Shown here: positions 35,638 to 46,126 of the stretch, in pieces
Layout of the letters: every line of letters begins with the position of its first letter
Position numbering within the stretch: position 1 is the first letter of the stretch
From: Cutibacterium acnes
GTDB lineage: Bacteria; Actinomycetota; Actinomycetes; Propionibacteriales; Propionibacteriaceae
Length of the DNA stretch: 64,000 nucleotides
Direction of reading: 5' to 3'
NCBI RefSeq assembly: GCF_003030305.1
Contig: NZ_CP023676.1
Location: 1,426,001-1,490,000, forward strand
Notes under the pieces: model-generated
The model's database searches: none
Seen by the model: only the letters and a program-made list of their open reading frames with translations
What the model was told of the DNA's origin: nothing
Translations under genes and position numbers: made by a program

Positions 35638-35950
35638 TCAAGACGTAGTCGGCATGAAGGACGGCCGATGTGCCTCATATGCGGCGATATCGTCTGCGTG
35701 TTCTAGGGTCTCGCCGACGGCGTCAAGACCGGCCAGCAGACGCTGACGCGTGACGTCATCAATATGGAACGGGTAGGTCGTGCGACCCGGAAGGTTAATC
35801 GTCCGATTCTCGAGGGAGAGGGTGAGCTGCTCACCAGGATGCTGCTCGGCAAAGTCCCACAACTCTCCGACGACCTTGGGATCAACCTGAGCCAGTAACA
35901 AGCCGTTGTTCGCAGAGTTATTGCGAAAGATGTCAGCAAACCGGGAACCG
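35638..35950 (-). pseudogene. leuD: leuD remnant (C-terminal half only)
   Basis: Encodes the last ~105 residues of the isopropylmalate isomerase small subunit: SRFADIFRNNSANNGLL, then LENRTINLPGRTTYPFHIDDVTRQRLLAGLDAVGETLEH to the stop at 35638. The first ~100-115 residues, which include the substrate-binding region, are absent and the sequence runs directly into a leuC fragment at about 35,950-35,965. A single deletion therefore removed the end of leuC and the start of leuD. Not functional. Confidence 0.9.
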
Positions 35951-36938
35951 ATCTCGTCGGGGTCAAATCCATGTACTCCAAACGCTGCGCTGCGAGCTAC
36001 CTCGTCCTCAAAGTCTTCGACGGCCGGCACCACACCGCCTAGGGGGGAGTCCCTGCCCAGGGTTGGTACCCCAGGTAACGAAGGGGGGCGAGATTCGAGG
36101 CGTCCACATGGATCTCAGCGTCAAAGGTCGCATCGTCGTCAGTACGCAGAGTGCGCCAGTACGCGACAGCCTTGTCCCACTGTGCACCACGCGGAGCGTG
36201 CGGACGATCCTTGAGGTAGGTGAAGGTGGTCTCATCAGAAGCAACCATGCCGACGCGAGCTCCCCACTCAATCGACATATTGCAGATCGTCATGCGACCC
36301 TCCATCGACATCTTCTCGATGGCCTCGCCGCGATACTCGACCATATGACCTTGTCCCCCACCGGTGCCGATCTCGGAGATGAGGGCCAGGATGAGGTCCT
36401 TAGGTGTGACCTCCTCAGGCACTTCCCCATCCACCATGACGGCCATCGTTGTGGGACGAACCTGCGGGAGGGTCTAGGTAGCCAACACATGCTCAACCTC
36501 GCTGGTACCGATACCGAAGGCTAAGGCCCCGAAGGCGCCGTGTGTAGAGGTGTGGGAGTCACCACAGACGACAGTCATCCCCGGCTGGGTGAGACCCAGT
36601 TGGGGACCGATGATGTGCACGACCCCCTGATCGGCGTCCCCTAAAGGCGGCACACCGAACTCAGGTGCGTTGGCTCGCAACGCCTCGACCTGAGCGCGCG
36701 AGACCGGGTCAACAATTGGCTCGATACTGCCGACGGTAGGGATGTTGTGGTCCTCGGTGGCAATGGTCAGAACCGAACGACGAACCGAGCGCCCAACTAA
36801 TAAGCTCATCGAAAGCCTGCGGACTTGTCACCTCGTGGACGAGGTGAAGGTCGATGTAGAGAAGATCACGCTCCCCGTCGTGCCCCATGCCTGAACGATG
36901 TGAGCGTCCCAGAGTTTCTCGCTCAACGTCCTCCCCAC
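35951..36938 (-). pseudogene. leuC: leuC remnant with many lesions
   Basis: Isopropylmalate isomerase large subunit, normally about 470 aa. The start GTG 36938 ([14 protein letters not shown]) is intact. Lesions seen in order: a frameshift near 36,895 (next block [14 protein letters not shown]); another near 36,803 (next block [18 protein letters not shown]); a TAG at 36474-36476 in EHVLAT-stop-TLPQVRP, where relatives have Gln; a frameshift in a run of six G at 36083-36088 (next block [11 protein letters not shown]); two more frame changes near 36,030 and 35,985; then deletion of roughly the last 140 codons, including the iron-sulfur Cys ligands. Fused to the leuD remnant. Confidence 0.93.
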
Positions 36939-37032
36939 CGCACCTTCCCATCCGTTGTTTGCAGTGTGATCCCCCTCTTGACAACACCCATTTTGGTTCG
37001 ACGGTCAAGATTTGGAACGCTAGTATCGGCAT

Positions 37033-37752
37033 ATGGACGAATCAAGTGGTGTTGGTGTATTGGACAAGGCCGCCCTCGTATTGGCAGCCCTCGAGACCGG
37101 ACCGGCCTCCTTAGCAGGGCTGGTTCAAATGACCGGATTGGCTCGCCCGACAGCCCATCGCTTGGCGCGCGCTCTGGAACACCACCGTTTCGTCGGACGC
37201 GATCTACAGGGGCGTTTCATTCTTGGCCCGCGGCTATCAGAACTTGCCGCAGCCGCCGGCGAAGATCGTCTCTTGGCGGCTTCCGGGCCGATCCTGGCCA
37301 GGCTGCGTGACATCACAGGTGAGTCCGCTCAGTTGTACCGACGCCAGGCCGGCAGCCGTGTCTGTGCCGCAGCTGCTGAACGTCCCACCGGTCTTCGCGA
37401 CACCATTCCGGTCGGGTCGGTGTTGTCGATGGACGCCGGTTCAGCCGCTCAGATCCTGCTGGCATGGGAAGACGTCGACAAGATCCGCCGTGGCTTAAGC
37501 CACTCTGCCTTCTCCGAAGTCACCTTGGCAGCCGTGCGCAAGCGCGGCTGGGCTCAATCTGTCGGTGAGCGTGAGGCCGGTGTGGCATCGGTCTCGGCCC
37601 CAGTGCGCTCTCCCTCAGGAAAGGTCATTGCGGCTATATCGGTGTCAGGACCGATCGAGCGTCTCACCCGTCAGCCGGGACGTATTCACGCTCCTGCCGT
37701 CGTCGCGGCGGGAGAGCGCTTATCGGAGGTGCTGCGCCGGTCCGCGCAATGA
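37033..37752 (+). CDS. IclR-family transcriptional regulator (NdgR-like)
   Basis: 239 aa. N-terminal winged helix-turn-helix (about residues 10-60, [28 protein letters not shown]) and a C-terminal effector-binding domain ([48 protein letters not shown]). It is divergent from leuC, the position of NdgR/LtbR, which controls leuCD and other amino-acid genes in Actinobacteria. The gene is complete even though leuCD is destroyed, so it must now serve other targets or be on the way out. TTGAC (36978-36982) and GTCAA (37004-37008) half-sites lie in the shared promoter region. Confidence 0.88.
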
Positions 37753-37838
37753 GGGTCACAGTGCTGCCCAAAGCGACCAGGGGTGTGAGAGGGTAATTCT
37801 TCGCACCTTGGGGGATGGCATCTCGCCAAGATGCTGCC

Positions 37839-37868
37839 ATGGCCCGGATCCTGCTAGATCCGGGCCAT
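37839..37868. terminator. Hairpin terminator between the IclR gene and tRNA-Glu
   Basis: Perfect 12-bp stem (37839-37850 with 37857-37868) and a 6-base loop. It is downstream of both the plus-strand IclR gene and the minus-strand tRNA-Glu, so it can serve both. Confidence 0.7.
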
Positions 37869-37878
37869 CTACCATTGG

Positions 37879-37951
37879 TAGCCCCGAGCGGATTCGAACC
37901 GCCGTTTCAGCCTTGAGAGGGCCGCGTGCTAGGCCGCTGCACTACGGGGCC
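37879..37951 (-). tRNA. tRNA-Glu (anticodon CUC)
   Basis: 73 nt cloverleaf: acceptor GGCCCCG with CGGGGCT (one G-U), D-stem GTGC/GCAC, anticodon stem CGGCC/GGCTG with loop CTCTCAA giving CTC, T-stem GGCGG/CCGCT, discriminator A. The CCA end appears to be encoded (37876-37878). Confidence 0.93.
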
Positions 37952-38087
37952 ATGAAGTTATCAATGACCGTCGAGTTCGGTCTTGAAAACCTTCTTCGAT
38001 TGTCCCCCGACTCGTTTCCAAACCGGGCTGGAAAACTTTAGCAATCCATCCGCTATCTGTGCAACTTCATGGATTTGGTTTCCCGCG

Positions 38088-38159
38088 CTGGGGTACCAGG
38101 ACTCGAACCTGGACTAACTGAACCAGAATCAGTCGGGCTGCCAATTACCCCATACCCCA
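38088..38159 (-). tRNA. tRNA-Gln (anticodon CUG)
   Basis: 72 nt: acceptor TGGGGTA with TACCCCA, anticodon stem ACTGA/TCAGT with loop TTCTGGT giving CTG, T-loop TTCGAGT in a CCAGG/CCTGG stem, discriminator G. The initial U-A pair is typical of tRNA-Gln. CCA is not encoded. Pairs with the tRNA-Glu 136 bases downstream. Confidence 0.93.
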
Positions 38160-38252
38160 ATGTCATTCCACCGTGATGAACCTCGGTGGCGCAACGACGA
38201 GAAACTCTAATGGCCCATCCACCAACTTTGCAAATCAGGGCGAAACTCCTTG

Positions 38253-39197
38253 TCACGCGGGTGTCCGTCGGGCCACTCTCATGAGACTTCCGATCCACCA
38301 TCCGGCAAGAGCGATCGTCAAGAAGCCACCAACGTCCCACGCGGCATCCACCCAACTCATCGCGGTCATGCCGCGGGCCTGCGACACCCCTCCCAGAAAG
38401 ACTGCATAACCGAAGGCGAAAAGGTTGTTGACGACGTGAGCCGCCACGCCAGCCTCGAGGCCTCCTGTGACGATGACGAGCCAACCGGCGAGCAAACCAA
38501 AGGCGAATCGATCCGCGAAAAGCCACGCGTTTTGCGTGCCATGCATGAAGGCAAAAACCAGTGCGGAGACGACTACCGACGTCCAGCACCCGGCTTTTTC
38601 CGGCAGGTTCACCGACAGTCCAGAGATGACGTTCATGAGGTAGCCGCGAAAGAACATCTCCTCGGCGATCGCTTGGAACGGCGAAGTTATGATGATTGCC
38701 AACAACCACGCCCACCAGTGCCGGGGAACGATGTAATGGGCGTTGACCCCTCCTCGTACCAGTAACTGCGTGAGGTTGAGCACCACTACAGCGACAAGGC
38801 CCACCAACAACCCGAATCTCCAGCGAATTCCTGGTTGTACCGAAGCCACCCATCGCGGCACACGATGGTTAAGGTAGCGGGCGAGCACAAGCACCACGAC
38901 GATCAGGCTGGCTAGAGCTACATGTGTGGCTATGAGCCCTCCGACGGTGTGATACCCGGCTGCTCGCGTGTAATAGGCGCTGAACCTTTCCCCGTCGGTA
39001 CGCTCAAGGAGCCAACCGACGCCAAGGAAGGCGTATAGCAAGCCCGGAACGACGACGGCATACCCCAACAGCAACCCGATGAGCCCCAGCAGTCCGGGAC
39101 CCGGGCCAGCACTCGAATCAACGAGAACCCGGGTGTAGTCGACCCGTGGCTCGGGGTCAGTCACCGTCACATGGCGGGACAGGACACGAGCCGCCAT
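38253..39197 (-). CDS. CPBP-family intramembrane metalloprotease
   Basis: 314 aa with about eight hydrophobic segments. The CPBP (Abi, Rce1-like) motifs are present: EExxxR in AIAEEMFFRGYLM near residues 185-195, FxxxH in FVFAFMHGTQN, and HxxxN in AAHVVNNLFAF. These place the metal-binding Glu and His residues inside the membrane. The family includes prenyl-protein proteases and bacteriocin-immunity proteins; the substrate here is unknown. Its ATG overlaps the stop of the upstream FAH-family gene. Confidence 0.85.
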   Translation of the reverse strand: MAARVLSRHVTVTDPEPRVDYTRVLVDSSAGPGPGLLGLIGLLLGYAVVVPGLLYAFLGVGWLLERTDGERFSAYYTRAAGYHTVGGLIATHVALASLIVVVLVLARYLNHRVPRWVASVQPGIRWRFGLLVGLVAVVVLNLTQLLVRGGVNAHYIVPRHWWAWLLAIIITSPFQAIAEEMFFRGYLMNVISGLSVNLPEKAGCWTSVVVSALVFAFMHGTQNAWLFADRFAFGLLAGWLVIVTGGLEAGVAAHVVNNLFAFGYAVFLGGVSQARGMTAMSWVDAAWDVGGFLTIALAGWWIGSLMRVARRTPA

Positions 39198-39997
39198 CAG
39201 ACCTCCACGACAGTGTTCGTTAGCGTCCCGATCCCCTCAATTTCAACCTCGACGCGCTGTCCGAGCTCCATCGGCCCGACCCCAGCGGGGGTACCCGTGA
39301 GGATGACATCGCCCGGCAACAAGGTCATGAACGAAGAGATATAGGAGATGAGCTTGGGGATGGTGTGGACCATCTGGTCGGTATTACCGTGCTGAACCTC
39401 CCTACCGTCTAGTCGAGTCACAATCTGGCGGTGAGACGCTTCTGCAATGGAGAAGTGGGTAACCATCCATGGCCCCAGCGGGCAGAAGGTGTCAGCCCCC
39501 TTGGCGCGAACCCAGTGACCGTCAGAATCTTGCAGATCGCGGGCAGTGACGTCATTGGCAACGGTGAACCCAAAGATGACTTCCTGAGCTCTGTCCTCTG
39601 GCACGTCCTTACAGATCCGTCCGATAACGATGGCCAGCTCCCCCTCGTAGTGCAGGTTGGAGGACGCAGTCGGTCGCACAATGGGTTCGTCAGGGCCGAT
39701 AACCGAGGTATTCGGTTTAACAAATAGAAGCGGTTGGTGGGGAACCTCATTGCCCAGTTCGCTGGCGTGATCGGCGTAGTTACGACCAACCCCAATGATC
39801 TTCGATCGCGGAATCACCGGAGACAGCAACCGCACATCGGCAAGGTCGTGACGGGCACCAGTGTATTGAACCGGTGCCGCCACTGGGTCTCCAGTGATAA
39901 CGGCGATGGTCTCGGGATGATCTCCATGATCGGCAGCAAGCTCTACGATCCCGAAGGCAGGGTCGGAACCAGCGGTGACAAACCGGGCAATACGCAT
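39197..39997 (-). CDS. Fumarylacetoacetate hydrolase-family protein
   Basis: 266 aa. Metal-dependent C-C bond hydrolase or decarboxylase fold: SKIIGVGRNYADHASELG, the metal-binding HYEGELAIVIG (Glu residues) and NDVTARDLQ, and GTPAGVGPMELGQ near the end. Length fits single-domain family members such as acylpyruvases and oxaloacetate decarboxylases; the actual substrate cannot be read from the sequence. Start ATG 39997 lacks a clear ribosome-binding site. Translationally coupled with the CPBP gene. Confidence 0.88.
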   Translation of the reverse strand: MRIARFVTAGSDPAFGIVELAADHGDHPETIAVITGDPVAAPVQYTGARHDLADVRLLSPVIPRSKIIGVGRNYADHASELGNEVPHQPLLFVKPNTSVIGPDEPIVRPTASSNLHYEGELAIVIGRICKDVPEDRAQEVIFGFTVANDVTARDLQDSDGHWVRAKGADTFCPLGPWMVTHFSIAEASHRQIVTRLDGREVQHGNTDQMVHTIPKLISYISSFMTLLPGDVILTGTPAGVGPMELGQRVEVEIEGIGTLTNTVVEV

Positions 39998-40077
39998 GAG
40001 TTAAGACTAACGACATAACGCGACATAACCGGGGCATCCACGCACTGAAGAAGGGTAAGCCCTGTCATACTTGCGCC

Positions 40078-41367
40078 ATGACCAGCACCTATTCCGTCGT
40101 CGACCTTATCCGCGCTAAGCGCGAAGGCCAGACTCTCAACTCCGACCAAATCGCATGGCTTATCCGCGCCTACACCGACGACATCGTCGCCGACGAGCAG
40201 ATGTCTGCCATGGCGATGGCGGTGTACTTCCAGGGGCTCGACGACGCTGAGCTGTCAGCCTGGACGACGGCCATGATCAAGTCGGGCGAGCGGATGTCCT
40301 TCGCTGGGCTGTCCCGCCCCACTGTCGACAAGCACTCCACTGGCGGCGTGGGCGACAAAATTACCTTGCCGCTGGCTCCCCTGGTGGCCGCGTGCGGTGC
40401 TGCCGTCCCACAGCTGTCTGGGCGTGGCCTGGGCCACACCGGAGGCACCCTCGACAAGATGGAGGCCATTCCCGGATGGCGGGCGGATCTCTCTCATGAC
40501 GAGATGGTCGCCCAGCTCGAGAAAGTCGGCGCCGTCATCTGCGCAGCGGGCCCGGGACTAGCCCCTGCTGACAAGAAGCTCTACGCCCTGCGCGACGTTA
40601 CCGGCACCGTCGAGTCCATCCCGCTGATTGCTTCGTCCATCATGAGCAAGAAGATCGCAGAGGGCACCGACAGCCTCGTCCTCGATGTCAAGACCGGCTC
40701 GGGTGCCTTCATGAAGACAGATAAGGACGCCCGCGAACTCGCCAGCCGTCTCGTCGAGCTAGGTGAAGCCGCCGGGGTGCGTACCACCGCCCTACTGACC
40801 CACATGGACGTCCCACTGGGTTACGCCTGCGGTAACGGCATCGAGGTTGCCGAATCCCTCGAGGTGTTAGCCGGCGGAGGTCCTGCCGACGTCGTCGAGC
40901 TCACCGTCGCCCTGGCCCGTCACATGGTGAAGGTGGCTGGATTGGACGGCATCGACCCGGCCGATGTACTCGCCAGTGGCCAGGCAATGGATGTCTGGCG
41001 CAACATGGTTCGTGCCCAGGGCGGCGACCCTGACGCTCCACTACCGATGGCCCACCACACCCAGGACATCGTCGCCACCGAGGCTGGCGTCATCACCGGG
41101 ATTGATGCCATGTCCGTTGGCCTAGCTGCCTGGCGTTTGGGTGCCGGACGCGCCCGCAAAGAGGATCCGGTGCAAGCTGCGGCTGGCATCATGTTAAGAG
41201 TTCGCCCCGGCGACCGCGTTGTCACAGGCCAGCCATTGGCCACCCTGCTCACCGACACCCCCGACTCCATTGCGCGGGCCGAGGATGCCATGACCAACGC
41301 GTTCACCGTCGGGCAAACCTTCCAGCCGCAAGACATTGTCATCGACACCGTCGTAGCCCAGTCGTGA
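40078..41367 (+). CDS. deoA: Thymidine (pyrimidine-nucleoside) phosphorylase
   Basis: 429 aa. Cleaves thymidine or other pyrimidine nucleosides with phosphate. Signature block SGRGLGHTGGTLDKMEAIPG at about 120-140, KHSTGGVGDK for phosphate binding, KKIAEGTDSLVLDVKTGSGAFMK, and a C-terminal glycine-rich domain with GRARKEDPVQAAAGI. Alone on the plus strand between an FAH-family gene and ilvE. Confidence 0.94.
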   Translation: MTSTYSVVDLIRAKREGQTLNSDQIAWLIRAYTDDIVADEQMSAMAMAVYFQGLDDAELSAWTTAMIKSGERMSFAGLSRPTVDKHSTGGVGDKITLPLAPLVAACGAAVPQLSGRGLGHTGGTLDKMEAIPGWRADLSHDEMVAQLEKVGAVICAAGPGLAPADKKLYALRDVTGTVESIPLIASSIMSKKIAEGTDSLVLDVKTGSGAFMKTDKDARELASRLVELGEAAGVRTTALLTHMDVPLGYACGNGIEVAESLEVLAGGGPADVVELTVALARHMVKVAGLDGIDPADVLASGQAMDVWRNMVRAQGGDPDAPLPMAHHTQDIVATEAGVITGIDAMSVGLAAWRLGAGRARKEDPVQAAAGIMLRVRPGDRVVTGQPLATLLTDTPDSIARAEDAMTNAFTVGQTFQPQDIVIDTVVAQS

Positions 41368-41373
41368 ACATAT

Positions 41374-41393
41374 CATTGGGGCCGGCCCCAATG
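41374..41393. terminator. Compact palindrome between deoA and ilvE
   Basis: A 20-base perfect palindrome CATTGGGGCC/GGCCCCAATG, which folds as an 8-bp stem with a CCGG loop. Lies between two convergent genes, 6 bases from the deoA stop and 13 from the ilvE stop. Confidence 0.6.
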
Positions 41394-41406
41394 GACGTCG
41401 ACGCCG

Positions 41407-42498
41407 TCAGCAGACTCGCTTCAACCAGCCACGGGTGTCCTCAGCGCGTCCGAACTGGATATCCAGCAGACGGCGACGGATCTCCATCGTGGTCTTTCCG
41501 GTGGGCTCAGAGACCTTCACGTCGGTATCTCCATCTAGGAAAGAGCCGATCGGTGTGACAACCGCGGCGGTACCGCAGGCGAAGACTTCCGGGAACTCGC
41601 CAGAGCGAACGCCATCAAGGAGCTCGTCAACATCGATCTTGCGCTCCACTGGTTCAAGACCGAGGTCGGGGGCAACTTCCAGAATGGATCTGCGAGTCAC
41701 GCCACGTAGGATGGTGCCAGCTAACTCGGGGGTGACGAGCTGACCGTCCTTGCTGATGGCCATGAAGTTCATACCACCCAGTTCCTCGATCCAGCGATGT
41801 TCAACTGCATCGACAAAGAGCACCTCGTTGCAGCCACGGGTCTTGGCATCGATCTGGGAACGCAGCGAAGCTGCGTAATTGCCACCGCACTTCGCCTCAC
41901 CGGTACCGCCGGGGGCCGTTCGAGCTTGACGACGCTCGACGAGGAGCCGCAGCGGTTTCACCCCGCTGACAAAGTAAGCGCCAACGGGAGAACCAATAAC
42001 GGAAAACAGCACGGTACTTGCCGCGGCAAGACCGAGGAAATCCTGGTAGGCGATCATGAACGGCCGCAGGTAGAGGGACTTCTCTCCACCCTCACCGGGC
42101 TCAGGGACCCAACGGGAGTCGACCTCAACCAAGCGCATACAAGCAGTAACGAAGTCTTCGACTCGCAGCGTGGGCAGGGCGAGACGCTCGGCCGACCGAA
42201 CAAAACGCTCACCGTTCTGATCAGGGCGGAAGAGCCAGATAGAACCGTCAGCGTGGCGGTAAGCCTTCAGGCCCTCGAAAATCTCCTGGGCATAATGCAG
42301 CACAGCGCTGCCAGGATTGATATCAAGTCCGTGGTAGTTGACCACGGCGTCGTCTCCCCAGCCTTCACCGGCCTGCCAGGTAGCAACAGCCATATGGTCG
42401 GCAAGGACCGCACCAAATCGTGGATTGGCATGTTCCAGCGCGATCCGCTCGTCGGAGGACCACGTCAGATCGTCAGCAGAAGCAAAGCGCAAACTCAT
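41407..42498 (-). CDS. ilvE: Branched-chain amino-acid aminotransferase IlvE
   Basis: 363 aa from ATG 42498; GTG two codons upstream is an alternative, and neither has a clear ribosome-binding site. PLP enzyme of fold type IV that interconverts Leu, Ile and Val with their 2-oxo acids. Seen: VLHYAQEIFEGLKAYR, RLALPTLRVEDFV, the PLP Lys in EAKCGGNYAASL, and FVDAVEHRWIEELGGMN. Length matches actinobacterial BCATs. It is complete while leuB, leuCD and ilvBN are broken; it can still work in breakdown of branched-chain amino acids for fatty-acid primers. Confidence 0.94.
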   Translation of the reverse strand: MSLRFASADDLTWSSDERIALEHANPRFGAVLADHMAVATWQAGEGWGDDAVVNYHGLDINPGSAVLHYAQEIFEGLKAYRHADGSIWLFRPDQNGERFVRSAERLALPTLRVEDFVTACMRLVEVDSRWVPEPGEGGEKSLYLRPFMIAYQDFLGLAAASTVLFSVIGSPVGAYFVSGVKPLRLLVERRQARTAPGGTGEAKCGGNYAASLRSQIDAKTRGCNEVLFVDAVEHRWIEELGGMNFMAISKDGQLVTPELAGTILRGVTRRSILEVAPDLGLEPVERKIDVDELLDGVRSGEFPEVFACGTAAVVTPIGSFLDGDTDVKVSEPTGKTTMEIRRRLLDIQFGRAEDTRGWLKRVC

Positions 42499-42585
42499 AG
42501 CCACACATTACACCCACGCCGAGCCATTCGTTCCATTTTTTGAATCGACGGATCATATCGTGGACGTGCTGAGTATGGTTCACCT

Positions 42586-43379
42586 ATGACCGACGACGTA
42601 ACGCAACCCGCTGTCATCGGCGGCGACGGAATTGGCCCCGAAGTCACCGAGCAGGCACTCCACGTACTGGAGCAGACCGTCGGATCTGATGCTTTTGCCA
42701 CCCACGAGTACCACCTTGGCGCCGCACATTGGAAGGCCACGGGAGAGGTTCTTGACAACTCCACTCTGGCCGAGATTGCCCAGGAAGTCGCCATCGTGCT
42801 CGACGCTGTCGGTGCTACCCCTGACTCGACAGAGGTGCCGTCAGTTTTATTTGGAGCGCGGCCATTTCGCCCTGATCCACAAGCACAACGTGCTCGTCAA
42901 TGCCGGAACCTTGTGGCGTCGGATCGTCGACGAAGTTGTTCAAGAGTTCCCGAGTGTCACCACTGACTACTTGCACGTCGACCTACTTGCACGTCGACGC
43001 TGTCACGATCGCTCTGGTACGAGACCCCCAGCGATTCGACGTCATCGTCACCGACAACCTCATCGGTGACATCATCACCGACCTTGCCTCAGCGGTGACC
43101 GGTGGCGTCGGGCTCGCCCCTAGCGCCAATATCAATACCTCCGGCGAATTCCCGTCGATGTTTGAGCCGGTGCACGGCTCAGCGCCTGACATTGCTGGCA
43201 CTGGTAAGGCTGACCCGACGGCAGCGATCCTGTCGATAGCATTGCTGCTAGATCACCTTGACCGCCCTGAGGATGCAGCCCGCGTCCGCGAGGCTGTCTC
43301 GGCGGACAATGCCACTAGGGCTTCCGGCCCCGCTCGAACGACCAGCGAGATCGGGCGAGACATTGCCCAACGCATCTGA
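42586..43379 (+). pseudogene. leuB: leuB remnant (3-isopropylmalate dehydrogenase)
   Basis: The start is intact (AVIGGDGIGPEV, then YHLGAAHWKATGEVL). Near 42,845 the frame is lost. At about 42,862 the sequence jumps from LERG directly to [15 protein letters not shown], losing about 85 codons that normally carry substrate-binding Arg and Tyr residues. A 16-bp exact tandem duplication (42967-42982 and 42983-42998) then shifts the frame again. Removing one copy restores [15 protein letters not shown]. The rest ([23 protein letters not shown] to [15 protein letters not shown]) is well preserved to the stop at 43379. Dead gene. Confidence 0.94.
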
Positions 43380-43445
43380 CCCAACCAACTACCAGCTAAC
43401 CGCCCTCACAAAAAGTTCGAAGATACCGACTGGCAGAATGGCCCC

Positions 43446-44024
43446 GTGTTACCCATTCCCGAGATCCCTGAACCGGTGACGAAAGCTCTCCATAACGCAC
43501 TGGAGATGGGCTATTTCACCACCACCCGCAATGAGACCGGCCGATTCATGGCTACCCTGGCGGCCGGGGTACATGGCGCCATTGGGGAGTGCGAAACGGG
43601 GTCTGGGGCAGGAGCTGCCTGGCTACGACTGGGGGCACGAAAACGCACCAGGGTTGTCAGTTACGAACCAGATCCCACGGTCTGCGCCCGAGCTCGCGAG
43701 GTCTTGGCTGACCTCGATATCGAGGTCATCGAGGGCACCTGGGATGACCTGCTCGATCACGGCCCCTTCGGCCTGCTCTCGGTACCGATCCGAGTAGCGA
43801 GAGCGCACGATGTTGACGAGATTCTCAAGGCGGTCTCGGTCGGAGGCCTCGTCGTCATCGACGATATGCCCCCCAGCCATGGTTTTCCTCCCCACGACAT
43901 CAATGGCACCGTCGATACCACCAGGCTGGCCTGGCTGACCCACCCGAAGGTGCACGCCACCGAGATTCAGCTTGCCTCCGACATGGCGGCCATCGTTGCC
44001 TGTCGGCTATCTGCTCGAGGCTGA
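43446..44024 (+). CDS. Class I SAM-dependent O-methyltransferase-like protein
   Basis: 192 aa from GTG 43446. Rossmann-type SAM fold: motif I GECETGSGAGAAWLR at about 43-57, an acidic residue in VVSYEPDP, and LVVIDDMPPSHG in the position of the metal-binding Asp-Asp of catechol-type O-methyltransferases. The usual Lys-Asn-Tyr block is not obvious. Substrate unknown. Follows the leuB remnant by 66 bases and converges with ilvC. Confidence 0.7.
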   Translation: MLPIPEIPEPVTKALHNALEMGYFTTTRNETGRFMATLAAGVHGAIGECETGSGAGAAWLRLGARKRTRVVSYEPDPTVCARAREVLADLDIEVIEGTWDDLLDHGPFGLLSVPIRVARAHDVDEILKAVSVGGLVVIDDMPPSHGFPPHDINGTVDTTRLAWLTHPKVHATEIQLASDMAAIVACRLSARG

Positions 44025-44043
44025 CGAGGCAGAGGATACAGAA

Positions 44044-44074
44044 TTGAGGGCCCGCGGTACCTACGGGCCCTCAA
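44044..44074. terminator. Bidirectional terminator between methyltransferase gene and ilvC
   Basis: Perfect 11-bp stem (44044-44054 with 44064-44074), 9-base loop, located between two convergent genes. Confidence 0.75.
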
Positions 44075-44090
44075 CGTCAGGCCAGCAGGC

Positions 44091-45119
44091 TCAACGAGCC
44101 ACGCTGCCTTCGGTGTAGTCGTCATCAGCAGCTGCCAGCCAGGAGTACATCTTGCGAAGCTCTTTACCGGTGGCCTCGATCGGATGCTTTGCCTCACCCT
44201 CGCGAAATTTCTTGGACTGTGGAGCACCGGCATCCTGATCGGCGATGAAACGCTTAGCGAAGGCGCCATTTTGGATGTCGTCTAGGACCGCCTTCATATT
44301 CTTTTTGACGTGGTCGTCGATCACACGCGGGCCAGACACGTAGTCGCCATACTCAGCAGTATCGGAAATTGACCAACGCAGCTTGGAGATACCGCCTTCG
44401 ATGATGAGGTCGACGATCATCTTCATCTCGTGACAAACCTCAAAATAGGCCATCTCCGGCTGGTAACCGGCGGTAACGAGAGTCTCAAAACCGGCCTGGA
44501 TGAGGTGGGACAGGCCACCGCACAGCACCGCTTGCTCACCGAAAAGATCGGTCTCGGTCTCCTCACGGAAGCTCGTTTCAATGCCGCCGGCGCGCAAACC
44601 GCCGAGGGCCTTGGCGTAAGACCTCGTGAGGTCCCAGGCGATGCCAGAGGCATCCTGCTCGACGCACACCAGCACCGGGACTCCGCGACCATCAGAGTAC
44701 TCCCGACGCACGATGTGACCGGGACCCTTCGGGGCAACCATACAGACGTCGACGCCCTGGGGAGCTTTGATGTAGCCGAAGTGGACGTTGAAGCCGTGAG
44801 CGAAGAAGAGAGCGTCACCGTCCTTGAGGTGCGGGGCAATGTGCTCAGCATAGAGCTGGCGCTGGTTTTGGTCGGGAACGAGCACCATAATTAAGTCGGC
44901 CTCTTCGCAGGCATCCTCGATGGACAGCACCCGCAGCCCCTGAGCCTCAGCCTTGGCGATAGACGAGGAGCCGTCACGCAGACCGACACGCACATCGACA
45001 CCGGAGTCGCGCAGGTTGAGAGCGTGAGCATGACCTTGGGAACCGTAACCGATGACGGCAACCTGACGGTTTTGGATGATGGACAGATCGGCGTCATCGT
45101 CGTAGTAGATCTTTGCCAT
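44091..45119 (-). CDS. ilvC: Ketol-acid reductoisomerase IlvC
   Basis: 342 aa from ATG 45119 (GGAGAG upstream). Converts acetolactate to dihydroxy-isovalerate with NADPH and Mg. Seen: [17 protein letters not shown] at 18-34 (cofactor loop), [11 protein letters not shown], and the knotted C-terminal domain with [15 protein letters not shown] (Mg-binding Asp/Glu) and [18 protein letters not shown]. It is class I in length. No lesion is visible, although ilvB and ilvN just upstream are destroyed, so its normal substrate should not be formed unless another acetolactate synthase exists elsewhere. Confidence 0.95.
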
Positions 45120-45172
45120 AGCGTATTTCTCTCCTTGTTGGGGGTCTGGGTTGTCTTGGGATCTAGGGAACG

Positions 45173-45595
45173 TCACCCGGGGCGTTTCGCCCCGAGAACA
45201 GCCACACCACGGTTGAGGGCCACTTGTCCGGATTGAACAAGTTCGACAATTCCGAAGTGTTCCAGCACCTGCAGTAACACATCCAGCTTCTCACGTCACC
45301 CGGTGGCCTCGATCGTCAGCGATTCCAGTGAGGCGTCGACGGCCTTGGCACGACGTAGAGCAACGGTGTCGATGATCTTTGAACGGTTTTCGACGTTGGA
45401 ACGCACTTTGACCAGGATGAGCTCACGGGTGACCGTGCTCGGCTCTGGTTCGGCGATCTTATGAATCTCAATGAGTTTGTTAAGTTGCTTGATAATTTGT
45501 TCAAGGGCCTGGGCGGAGACGGCGTCCACTCCGATCGTCATCCGGGTCTCACTGGGATCGTCAGTCGGCGACACCGACAGTACGCGTCTGGTCAA
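45173..45595 (-). pseudogene. ilvN: ilvN remnant (acetolactate synthase small subunit)
   Basis: Normal IlvN is about 165-175 aa. Here TRRVLSV joins directly to SPTDDPSETRMTIGVDA; about 30 residues containing the first strands and helix of the ACT domain (valine-binding) are missing in frame. A TGA at 45296-45298 follows IEATG; after it the same frame continues [23 protein letters not shown] to a stop at 45173, the expected C-terminus. A CGA-to-TGA change would explain the stop. TTG 45595 overlaps the ilvB stop, preserving the original gene junction. Confidence 0.9.
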
Positions 45596-46126
45596 CTCAT
45601 CTTCCCGGCCTCATCATCGTTGCTGTCCTCGTCGCCGGGAGCAACGTCGTCTCCAACGTCACCCCAGTCCGGAGCCATATCTCGGGCGATCGTGATTTCA
45701 TCATTACTGGCTCCGAAAGCCACCATCGGCCAGACCATGGCGTCAGTGCGGATGATGAATTCCACCACGACCGGGCGGTCATTGATCGTGTTGGCAGCTG
45801 TGATCGTCTCGTCGACCATGCCCGGTCTGCGACCCGGAAAACAGCGCACCCCAATGCTTCAGCAAGCTTGACGAAGTCTGGTAAGGGGTCGGAGTGCAGA
45901 TCCATGTGAAAGAACCGACAATCAAAAGAACAGGTTCTGCCGCTGGCGCACCATGCCGAGCACGGTGTCTTGGGGTGCCAAAGCACCAACGCGCTGGATG
46001 ACCTGCTGCGGGGGGAGATTTCTTCCTCGGGCGTTTCTTCACCATGTGAGTGCATAGGTTTTTCATCCGCTGTAACTGACGCACCCAGGCAGAGATATCG
46101 GGCAGGTCGTGCTGTCCGGGAGGATC
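45592..46126 (-). pseudogene. ilvB: ilvB remnant (acetolactate synthase large subunit, C-terminal pieces)
   Basis: Only parts of the last third of the ~590-aa enzyme remain, in several frames: DLPDISAWVRQLQRMKNL, EETPEEEIS, then PQQVIQRVGALAPQDTV joined directly to LGMVRQRQNLF (about 80 codons missing, including the thiamine-diphosphate-binding GDG...NN region), MDLHSDPLPDFVKLAEALGCAVFRV, and finally INDRPVVVEFIIRTDAMVWPMVAFGASNDEI to the stop at 45592. The first ~380 residues are gone, with HIT following within 100 bases. Non-functional. Confidence 0.9.

Follow-up and report, generated by a model that had tools for sequence, protein, structure and literature searches.

Remnants and intact genes at the locus

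The stretch of Cutibacterium acnes DNA described here (contig NZ_CP023676.1; the whole stretch of 64,000 nucleotides (nt) is called the window) carries an intact ilvC, the gene for ketol-acid reductoisomerase (KARI), among broken genes of the branched-chain amino-acid pathway to which it belongs. The genome of the window, G000 in our numbering, comprises 2,495,001 bases in a single contig. Five branched-chain synthesis genes that lie between 35.6 and 46.1 kb (leuC, leuD, leuB, ilvN and ilvB) are broken, while ilvC, ilvE and the gene for an IclR-type regulator are whole, all three with open frames and family matches. An initial annotation, made from the DNA letters, had described the first five as eroded and the other three as clean, and this is confirmed by tblastn alignment to intact copies from the same genus (genome G001 as reference; the leuD reference came from G003). 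In window coordinates, the features are:

35644..35952, minus strand: leuD remnant (tblastn: residues 135-237 of 238, 78%)
35958..36971, minus strand: leuC remnant (tblastn: residues 7-348 of 488, 71%)
37033..37752, plus strand: IclR-type regulator, called NdgR-like in the initial annotation, intact, 239 amino acids (IclR_C and HTH_IclR domains)
41407..42504, minus strand: ilvE, branched-chain aminotransferase, intact, 365 amino acids (TIGR01123, 387.6 bits, cut-off 250.05)
42583..43379, plus strand: leuB remnant (residues 2-91, 187-228 and 219-354 of 354)
44091..45119, minus strand: ilvC, class I KARI by family match, intact, 342 amino acids, ATG at 45119 (TIGR00465, 427.9 bits, cut-off 226.15)
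45182..45580, minus strand: ilvN remnant (tblastn: residues 34-166 of 168, 83%)
45613..46108, minus strand: ilvB remnant (residues 357-406 and 490-608 of 608)

The leuD remnant is the C-terminal part only, fused to the stump of leuC and contained in an open reading frame (ORF) at 35638-36033. The leuC remnant has several frame changes, one TGA and three TAG codons inside it, and no C-terminus. By alignment, leuB has suffered a 281-nt deletion and a 16-nt insertion; the latter (window 42950-43000) looks like a tandem duplication. The N-terminus of ilvN is deleted, 79 nt are missing and a stop lies in frame, and ilvB survives as fragments of the C-terminal half, interrupted by frame changes and stops, 261 nt being missing inside the piece.

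The initial annotation had taken this pattern for a loss of branched-chain synthesis, and the rest of the G000 genome supports that view. The genome-wide searches turned up no intact copy of ilvD, ilvB or leuC, two weaker thiamine pyrophosphate (TPP) proteins (L174 and L182) having been left out of the NCBIfam scan. ilvD has no match in G000 at E<=0.001, and a search with the aconitase family returned one open frame of 925 amino acids, presumably aconitase from its size, and the leuC remnant of the window, with no other match. The TPP_enzyme_N domain occurs in three G000 proteins, of which the one most like acetolactate synthase is a pyruvate dehydrogenase (NCBIfam 1017 bits, cut-off 893) that reaches only 272 bits against the synthase model (cut-off 538). 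The initial annotation had suggested looking for a second acetolactate synthase, ilvD and leuA; neither of the first two turned up, and leuA is intact (810 bits, cut-off 697). Whole leuB, leuD and ilvN are absent from the locus, to which the search for these three was confined. With no synthase, dehydratase or LeuBCD found for it in these searches, G000 does not qualify as the carrier of a working branched-chain pathway, and what it retains of the set is leuA, ilvC and ilvE. Its ilvC is an orphan because ilvB and ilvD have been lost.

Repeated loss of the pathway in the genus

We compared nine genomes of the genus (G000 to G008). Five of them, referred to below as keepers (G001, G003, G005, G006 and G008), have ilvD and ilvB over cut-off, and in the stretches fetched around their ilvC genes, ilvB, ilvN and leuB align over nearly their full length. 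leuC is whole in G001 and G003; in G005 and G008 it runs as far as the fetched sequence extends. In G006 (L119:18300-19752), it lies in two different frames, covering residues 5-214 and 212-487, and may be breaking there too, or the frame change may be an assembly error. The other four genomes, the losers (G000, G002, G004 and G007), have no ilvD match at E<=0.001 and no synthase over the ilvB cut-off; they are also without whole ilvN, leuB, leuC and leuD in the stretches fetched around ilvC, and for these genes the statement applies to those stretches only. Short decayed pieces of ilvB, ilvN and leuC remain in G007 (50, 59 and 46% protein identity), and the fetched stretches of G002 and G004 hold no trace of ilvB, ilvN, leuB, leuC or leuD. 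ilvC is kept in all nine genomes, and all nine proteins pass the ilvC family cut-off. The same stretch also contains ilvE in 9/9 genomes, and the IclR-type regulator is likewise present throughout (89-100%).

On a species tree built from six flanking proteins (2,360 columns), G000 groups with G007 (support 97), and this pair, G004 and G002 are interleaved with keepers; support is only 68, 79 and 85 at three nodes. Because keepers fall between the losers on this tree, ilvB and ilvD were lost independently at least three times in the genus, if lost genes were not regained. The initial annotation had spoken of a recent or ongoing loss. This stands for G000, where the remnants seem to have drifted for part of the branch only, but it does not carry over to the genus, in which ilvB and ilvD went at least three times and the locus has been cleared more fully in G002, G004 and G007.

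A wider survey for orphan ilvC covered 246 genomes of the class that are at least 95% complete, a sample that does not include G002, G004 and G007. ilvD is over cut-off in 240 of these, four match below cut-off (these were not inspected) and two, G000 and G189, are without ilvD at E<=1e-60; both have ilvC. G189 was rejected as a further case, since ilvBN stand beside its ilvC and the missing ilvD may be an assembly gap. The genome of the window is the only clear case of ilvC without ilvD in this survey, which has little power, nearly all of its members looking prototrophic. Two members of the same family, G015 and G018, give no match to ilvB (E<=1e-20) or to ilvC; a third, G054 (L205; 88% complete, 210 contigs), has ilvC without an ilvB match at that threshold.

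Selection on ilvC in G000 and G007

Codon-position rates were obtained by counting changes at sites that are identical in the keepers. For the remnants, counts were restricted to blocks without gaps that span 36 nt or more at 70% identity or higher, trimmed by four bases at each end. The blocks of G000 dropped for low identity were ilvB reference positions 958-1075 and leuC positions 1020-1061 and 1069-1108; in G007, the filter left no block of ilvB (out of two) or leuB (out of one), one of two for ilvN and one of five for leuC.

At codon positions 1, 2 and 3, ilvC has changed at 4/313, 6/330 and 23/136 sites in G000 (1.3, 1.8 and 16.9%) and at 11/313, 6/330 and 23/136 sites in G007. Control genes are much alike (the helicase gene in G000 has 15/767, 13/825 and 44/237), and the rates of ilvE match theirs. 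In the G000 remnants of four genes, position 1 (38/694) does not differ from position 2 (38/736; p=0.81). When positions 1 and 2 are pooled, ilvC of G000 has 10/643 changes, as against 39/455 in the ilvB and ilvN remnants (p=4.5e-8) and 37/975 in the leuB and leuC remnants (p=0.0095). At the rate of the ilvBN remnants, about 55 changes would be expected in ilvC, and 10 are observed.

A comparison of the ratio of non-synonymous to synonymous substitution rates (dN/dS) of ilvC had been proposed in the initial annotation. The branch value is 0.07 (0.04-0.14) in G000 and 0.09 (0.05-0.16) in G007, from pairwise distances fitted to the tree, with hisF left unused for its unstable branch dS. With an open frame and a constrained codon-position pattern, the ilvC of the window does not look like a pseudogene; the gene is under strong purifying selection in G000 and G007 and is no leftover there. 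These rate tests favor the idea, also put forward in the initial annotation, that the retained genes might be doing other jobs.

leuA encodes another enzyme orphaned by this loss (L194:1330-3123 in G000 and L192:1378-3102 in G004); the gene is intact and constrained in both genomes, even though their leuBCD are broken or missing at the locus. In G000, changes at the three codon positions number 10/505, 5/533 and 35/204. The intact survival of leuA goes beyond what the initial annotation had noticed, as does the loss of catalytic IlvC residues in two sister lineages.

Divergent IlvC proteins in G004 and G002

The magnesium ligands of a class I KARI with the same numbering are D191, E195, E227 and E231 (PMC8615647). 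All four are present in the IlvC proteins of G000 and G007 and in 35/35 other homologues, in an alignment that included seven Actinomycetaceae loci, the first of those listed in a related-locus contig search; the 80 loci kept from that search include no same-genus record. The active-site columns of the window's IlvC are intact, and by family score and metal ligands the protein classes as a class I KARI, its conversion of acetolactate to dihydroxyisovalerate itself being predicted.

The proteins of G004 and G002 are different. Among 168 near-invariant columns (the same residue in at least 34 of the 35 other homologues, a gap being scored as a change), two differ in G000, three in G007, 26 in G004 and 66 in G002. 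The IlvC branch lengths of G004 and G002 are 0.286 and 1.019, compared with 0.050 and 0.229 for the control proteins of the species tree. Neither protein has the full set of KARI metal ligands (D191N and E227Q in G004; D191E and E231V in G002), and both have also lost K131, S252 and S53, each of which is invariant in 35/35 others. We take K131, S252 and H108 to be residues with active-site roles. R48 varies among the other homologues and was not used as evidence. Both proteins still pass TIGR00465, with 351.6 bits in G004 and 252.1 bits in G002, and the G002 protein falls below NF004017 (330.9, cut-off 336). Judged by these residues, the two are unlikely to be normal KARIs.

Their reading frames are nevertheless open, encoding 332 amino acids in G004 and 354 in G002, where the C-terminus differs. 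Changes at position 1 exceed those at position 2 both in G004 (43/311 and 23/328; p=0.006) and in G002 (95/287 and 64/305; p=0.001), an excess absent from the unconstrained remnants. The replacements are also less drastic than expected from random mutation (p=0.007 for G004 and p=0.009 for G002). Gaps in these two genes were placed by a protein-guided codon alignment that is blind to compensated frame shifts, and they were not used as evidence. Continuing selection on the changed IlvC is probable, not proven, and the protein either has a new function independent of KARI chemistry or is the product of a slowly dying gene.

A probable function outside the pathway

Taken together, we consider it probable that the reductoisomerase outlives its pathway for a function outside it, and that it became a pseudoenzyme or a new enzyme in two lineages. 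Branched-chain synthesis has been lost at least three times in the genus, presumably since the host supplies these amino acids. At each loss, acetolactate synthase and dihydroxyacid dehydratase disappeared, leuB and leuC vanished from the locus, and IlvC remained. In G000 and G007, strong purifying selection together with intact metal and substrate residues argues that IlvC would still work as an NADPH- and magnesium-dependent reductase or reductoisomerase, serving some purpose other than branched-chain synthesis. IlvE, kept in all four losers, would convert imported amino acids to 2-oxo acids, one of which, or else hydroxypyruvate, would serve as the substrate that IlvC reduces. The retention of ilvE is in any case readily explained by branched-chain catabolism and the supply of fatty-acid primers. 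Promiscuous reduction of 2-oxo acids or hydroxypyruvate, fed partly by IlvE, is our leading guess for the job of IlvC, but a speculative one and unlikely to be right in just this form. KARIs do accept a number of 2-oxo acids and related compounds for reduction (PMC4353338).

More tentatively, we propose that, once branched-chain synthesis is gone, the sole ilvC of this human-associated genus evolves a new function in place, without duplication. The gene would first be conserved for a hidden activity outside the pathway and would then, in at least two lineages, come to encode an open-frame, KARI-derived pseudoenzyme or new enzyme without the di-magnesium site; this course of events is possible, though on the whole we doubt it. 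The genus forms a graded series: at one end the pathway is intact, in the middle fresh pseudogenes accompany a conserved IlvC, and at the other end the pathway is completely lost and IlvC is altered. The order in which a pathway is lost, and what its loss costs, can thus be tested within one set of relatives.

A number of points weigh against a function outside the pathway. No substrate or phenotype is tied to IlvC, and each species is represented by one genome. Part of each branch predates the loss of the pathway, which weakens all the selection tests. ilvC of G000 is slightly faster than that of keepers (10/643 compared with 3/576 in G005 and 6/630 in G003, the keeper sets differing), a hint of possible mild relaxation. 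leuA is constrained in G000 (15/1038) yet absent from G007 and G002, so some orphan genes do go later. The active-site losses of IlvC amount to K131T, D191N, E227Q and S252G in G004 and to H108R, K131E, D191E, E231V and S252D in G002, and no single catalytic function can therefore explain all four losers. The changed C-terminus of G002 could itself be damage. Finally, under neutral substitution, 2-27% of the runs for G004 and 0-6% of those for G002 end without a stop in the frame (ranges over several substitution numbers and mutation biases), and the dN/dS of ilvC in G004, 0.46 (0.31-0.99), is still compatible with drift.

Alternative explanations

The alternative that survives best, although we think it improbable, is that ilvC is functionless, the last gene to go, and that its ORF stays open by chance in GC-rich DNA. 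The dN/dS of G004, with its upper bound near 1, and the active-site residues lost in G004 and G002 fit such a lag, as does the fate of leuA, which was lost in two of the four losers and kept in two, as stepwise loss predicts. The explanation fails for G000 and G007, because their ilvC genes evolve like housekeeping genes, whereas the neighboring genes that were inactivated along the G000 branch accumulate changes at positions 1 and 2 at 2.4-5.5 times the rate. A time lag by itself misfits G007 most clearly, since the pathway remnants there are almost gone (short pieces at 46-59% identity) and ilvC is constrained.

It is far less likely that IlvC backs up pyrroline-5-carboxylate (P5C) reductase in proline synthesis. 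KARIs of Streptomyces reduce P5C and complement proC (PMC4353338), and in our view the reaction might not need the di-metal site. However, proC is over cut-off in 9/9 genus genomes, which makes a weak side activity redundant, and the enzyme of Corynebacterium glutamicum is without P5C activity in the passages of PMC4353338 used here. IlvC as the sole P5C reductase was rejected, proC reaching 255.8 bits in G000 (cut-off 196.75).

We give slightly less credence still to IlvC serving as ketopantoate reductase (PanE) in vitamin B5 synthesis. By established biochemistry, IlvE would supply ketoisovalerate from valine, and the PanE role has been shown experimentally for Buchnera ilvC (PMC4306246) and is cited for C. 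glutamicum. Against it, panC (TIGR00018) is unmatched at E<=1e-5 in eight of the nine genus genomes, including all four losers, and the role is weakened because pantoate is useless without PanC. The pantothenate route was rejected on the missing panC; panB and panE were not searched for. Among the nine genus genomes, panC occurs in G003 only (L125).

Least likely of all, the pathway might still run through a non-orthologous source of acetolactate and a non-orthologous dehydratase: other TPP enzymes are present, and relatives of pyruvate dehydrogenase and pyruvate oxidase can form some acetolactate, but the losers have no ilvD family match at E<=0.001, the best TPP candidates of the three losers scanned, G000, G002 and G004, are pyruvate dehydrogenases over the NCBIfam cut-off, proteins with an equal TPP domain score occur in keepers, and IlvC has lost active-site residues in two lineages. 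Of four TPP proteins scanned with NCBIfam, the sole acetolactate synthase was L168 of the keeper G008 (NF006187, 724 bits, cut-off 509).

Relation to published systems

Erosion alone is ordinary, since 84 Cutibacterium genomes have already been predicted to be auxotrophs for methionine, phenylalanine, tryptophan and the branched-chain amino acids (PMC9026213). The passages of that paper used here mention neither gene remnants nor a conserved orphan ilvC. What is new is the comparative part, namely an orphan ilvC conserved after repeated loss of the pathway in a genus.

Three published systems come close. In the reduced genome of Buchnera, ilvC carries out a second reaction that helps to explain its retention; according to the part of PMC4306246 used here, the Buchnera enzyme serves both branched-chain and pantothenate synthesis, whereas here ilvB, ilvD and panC are missing. 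The promiscuous actinobacterial KARIs of the proline interlock reduce several non-native substrates, but those treated in the relevant passages of PMC4353338 belong to species in which ilvC serves branched-chain synthesis, a pathway that is lost here, where proC is intact. BurG, a cyclopropanol synthase of the KARI family, has evolved a new function on the KARI fold, and is described in the passages at hand as an extra gene in a product cluster that keeps both magnesium ions (PMC9359912). In the present case, by contrast, the only copy of ilvC diverges where it stands, with metal ligands lost in two lineages. Our literature search, which left most subscription literature aside, found no published case in which ilvC is conserved while acetolactate synthase, dehydratase and PanC are missing, and none of its conversion in place. 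Within the same search, no paper paired ‘ketol-acid reductoisomerase’ with ‘pseudoenzyme’.

An enzyme that stays conserved after its pathway has gone offers a natural way to probe underground metabolism. KARI would here do something useful that is not listed for it, two published second jobs being a poor fit. This matters for proposals to use KARI as a drug target and for automatic annotation, where all nine proteins pass the ilvC cut-off though two have lost metal ligands.

Further observations around the regulator

To the right of the regulator, G004 has ORFs that are transposase-like by eye (L219:12700-16300). An acyltransferase-like gene of the same genome lies about 90 nt from the regulator, at the place where keepers have leuCD. 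In the window, a tRNA-Glu (ctc) gene at 37876-37951 and a tRNA-Gln (ctg) gene at 38087-38159, both on the minus strand, stand beside the IclR-type regulator.

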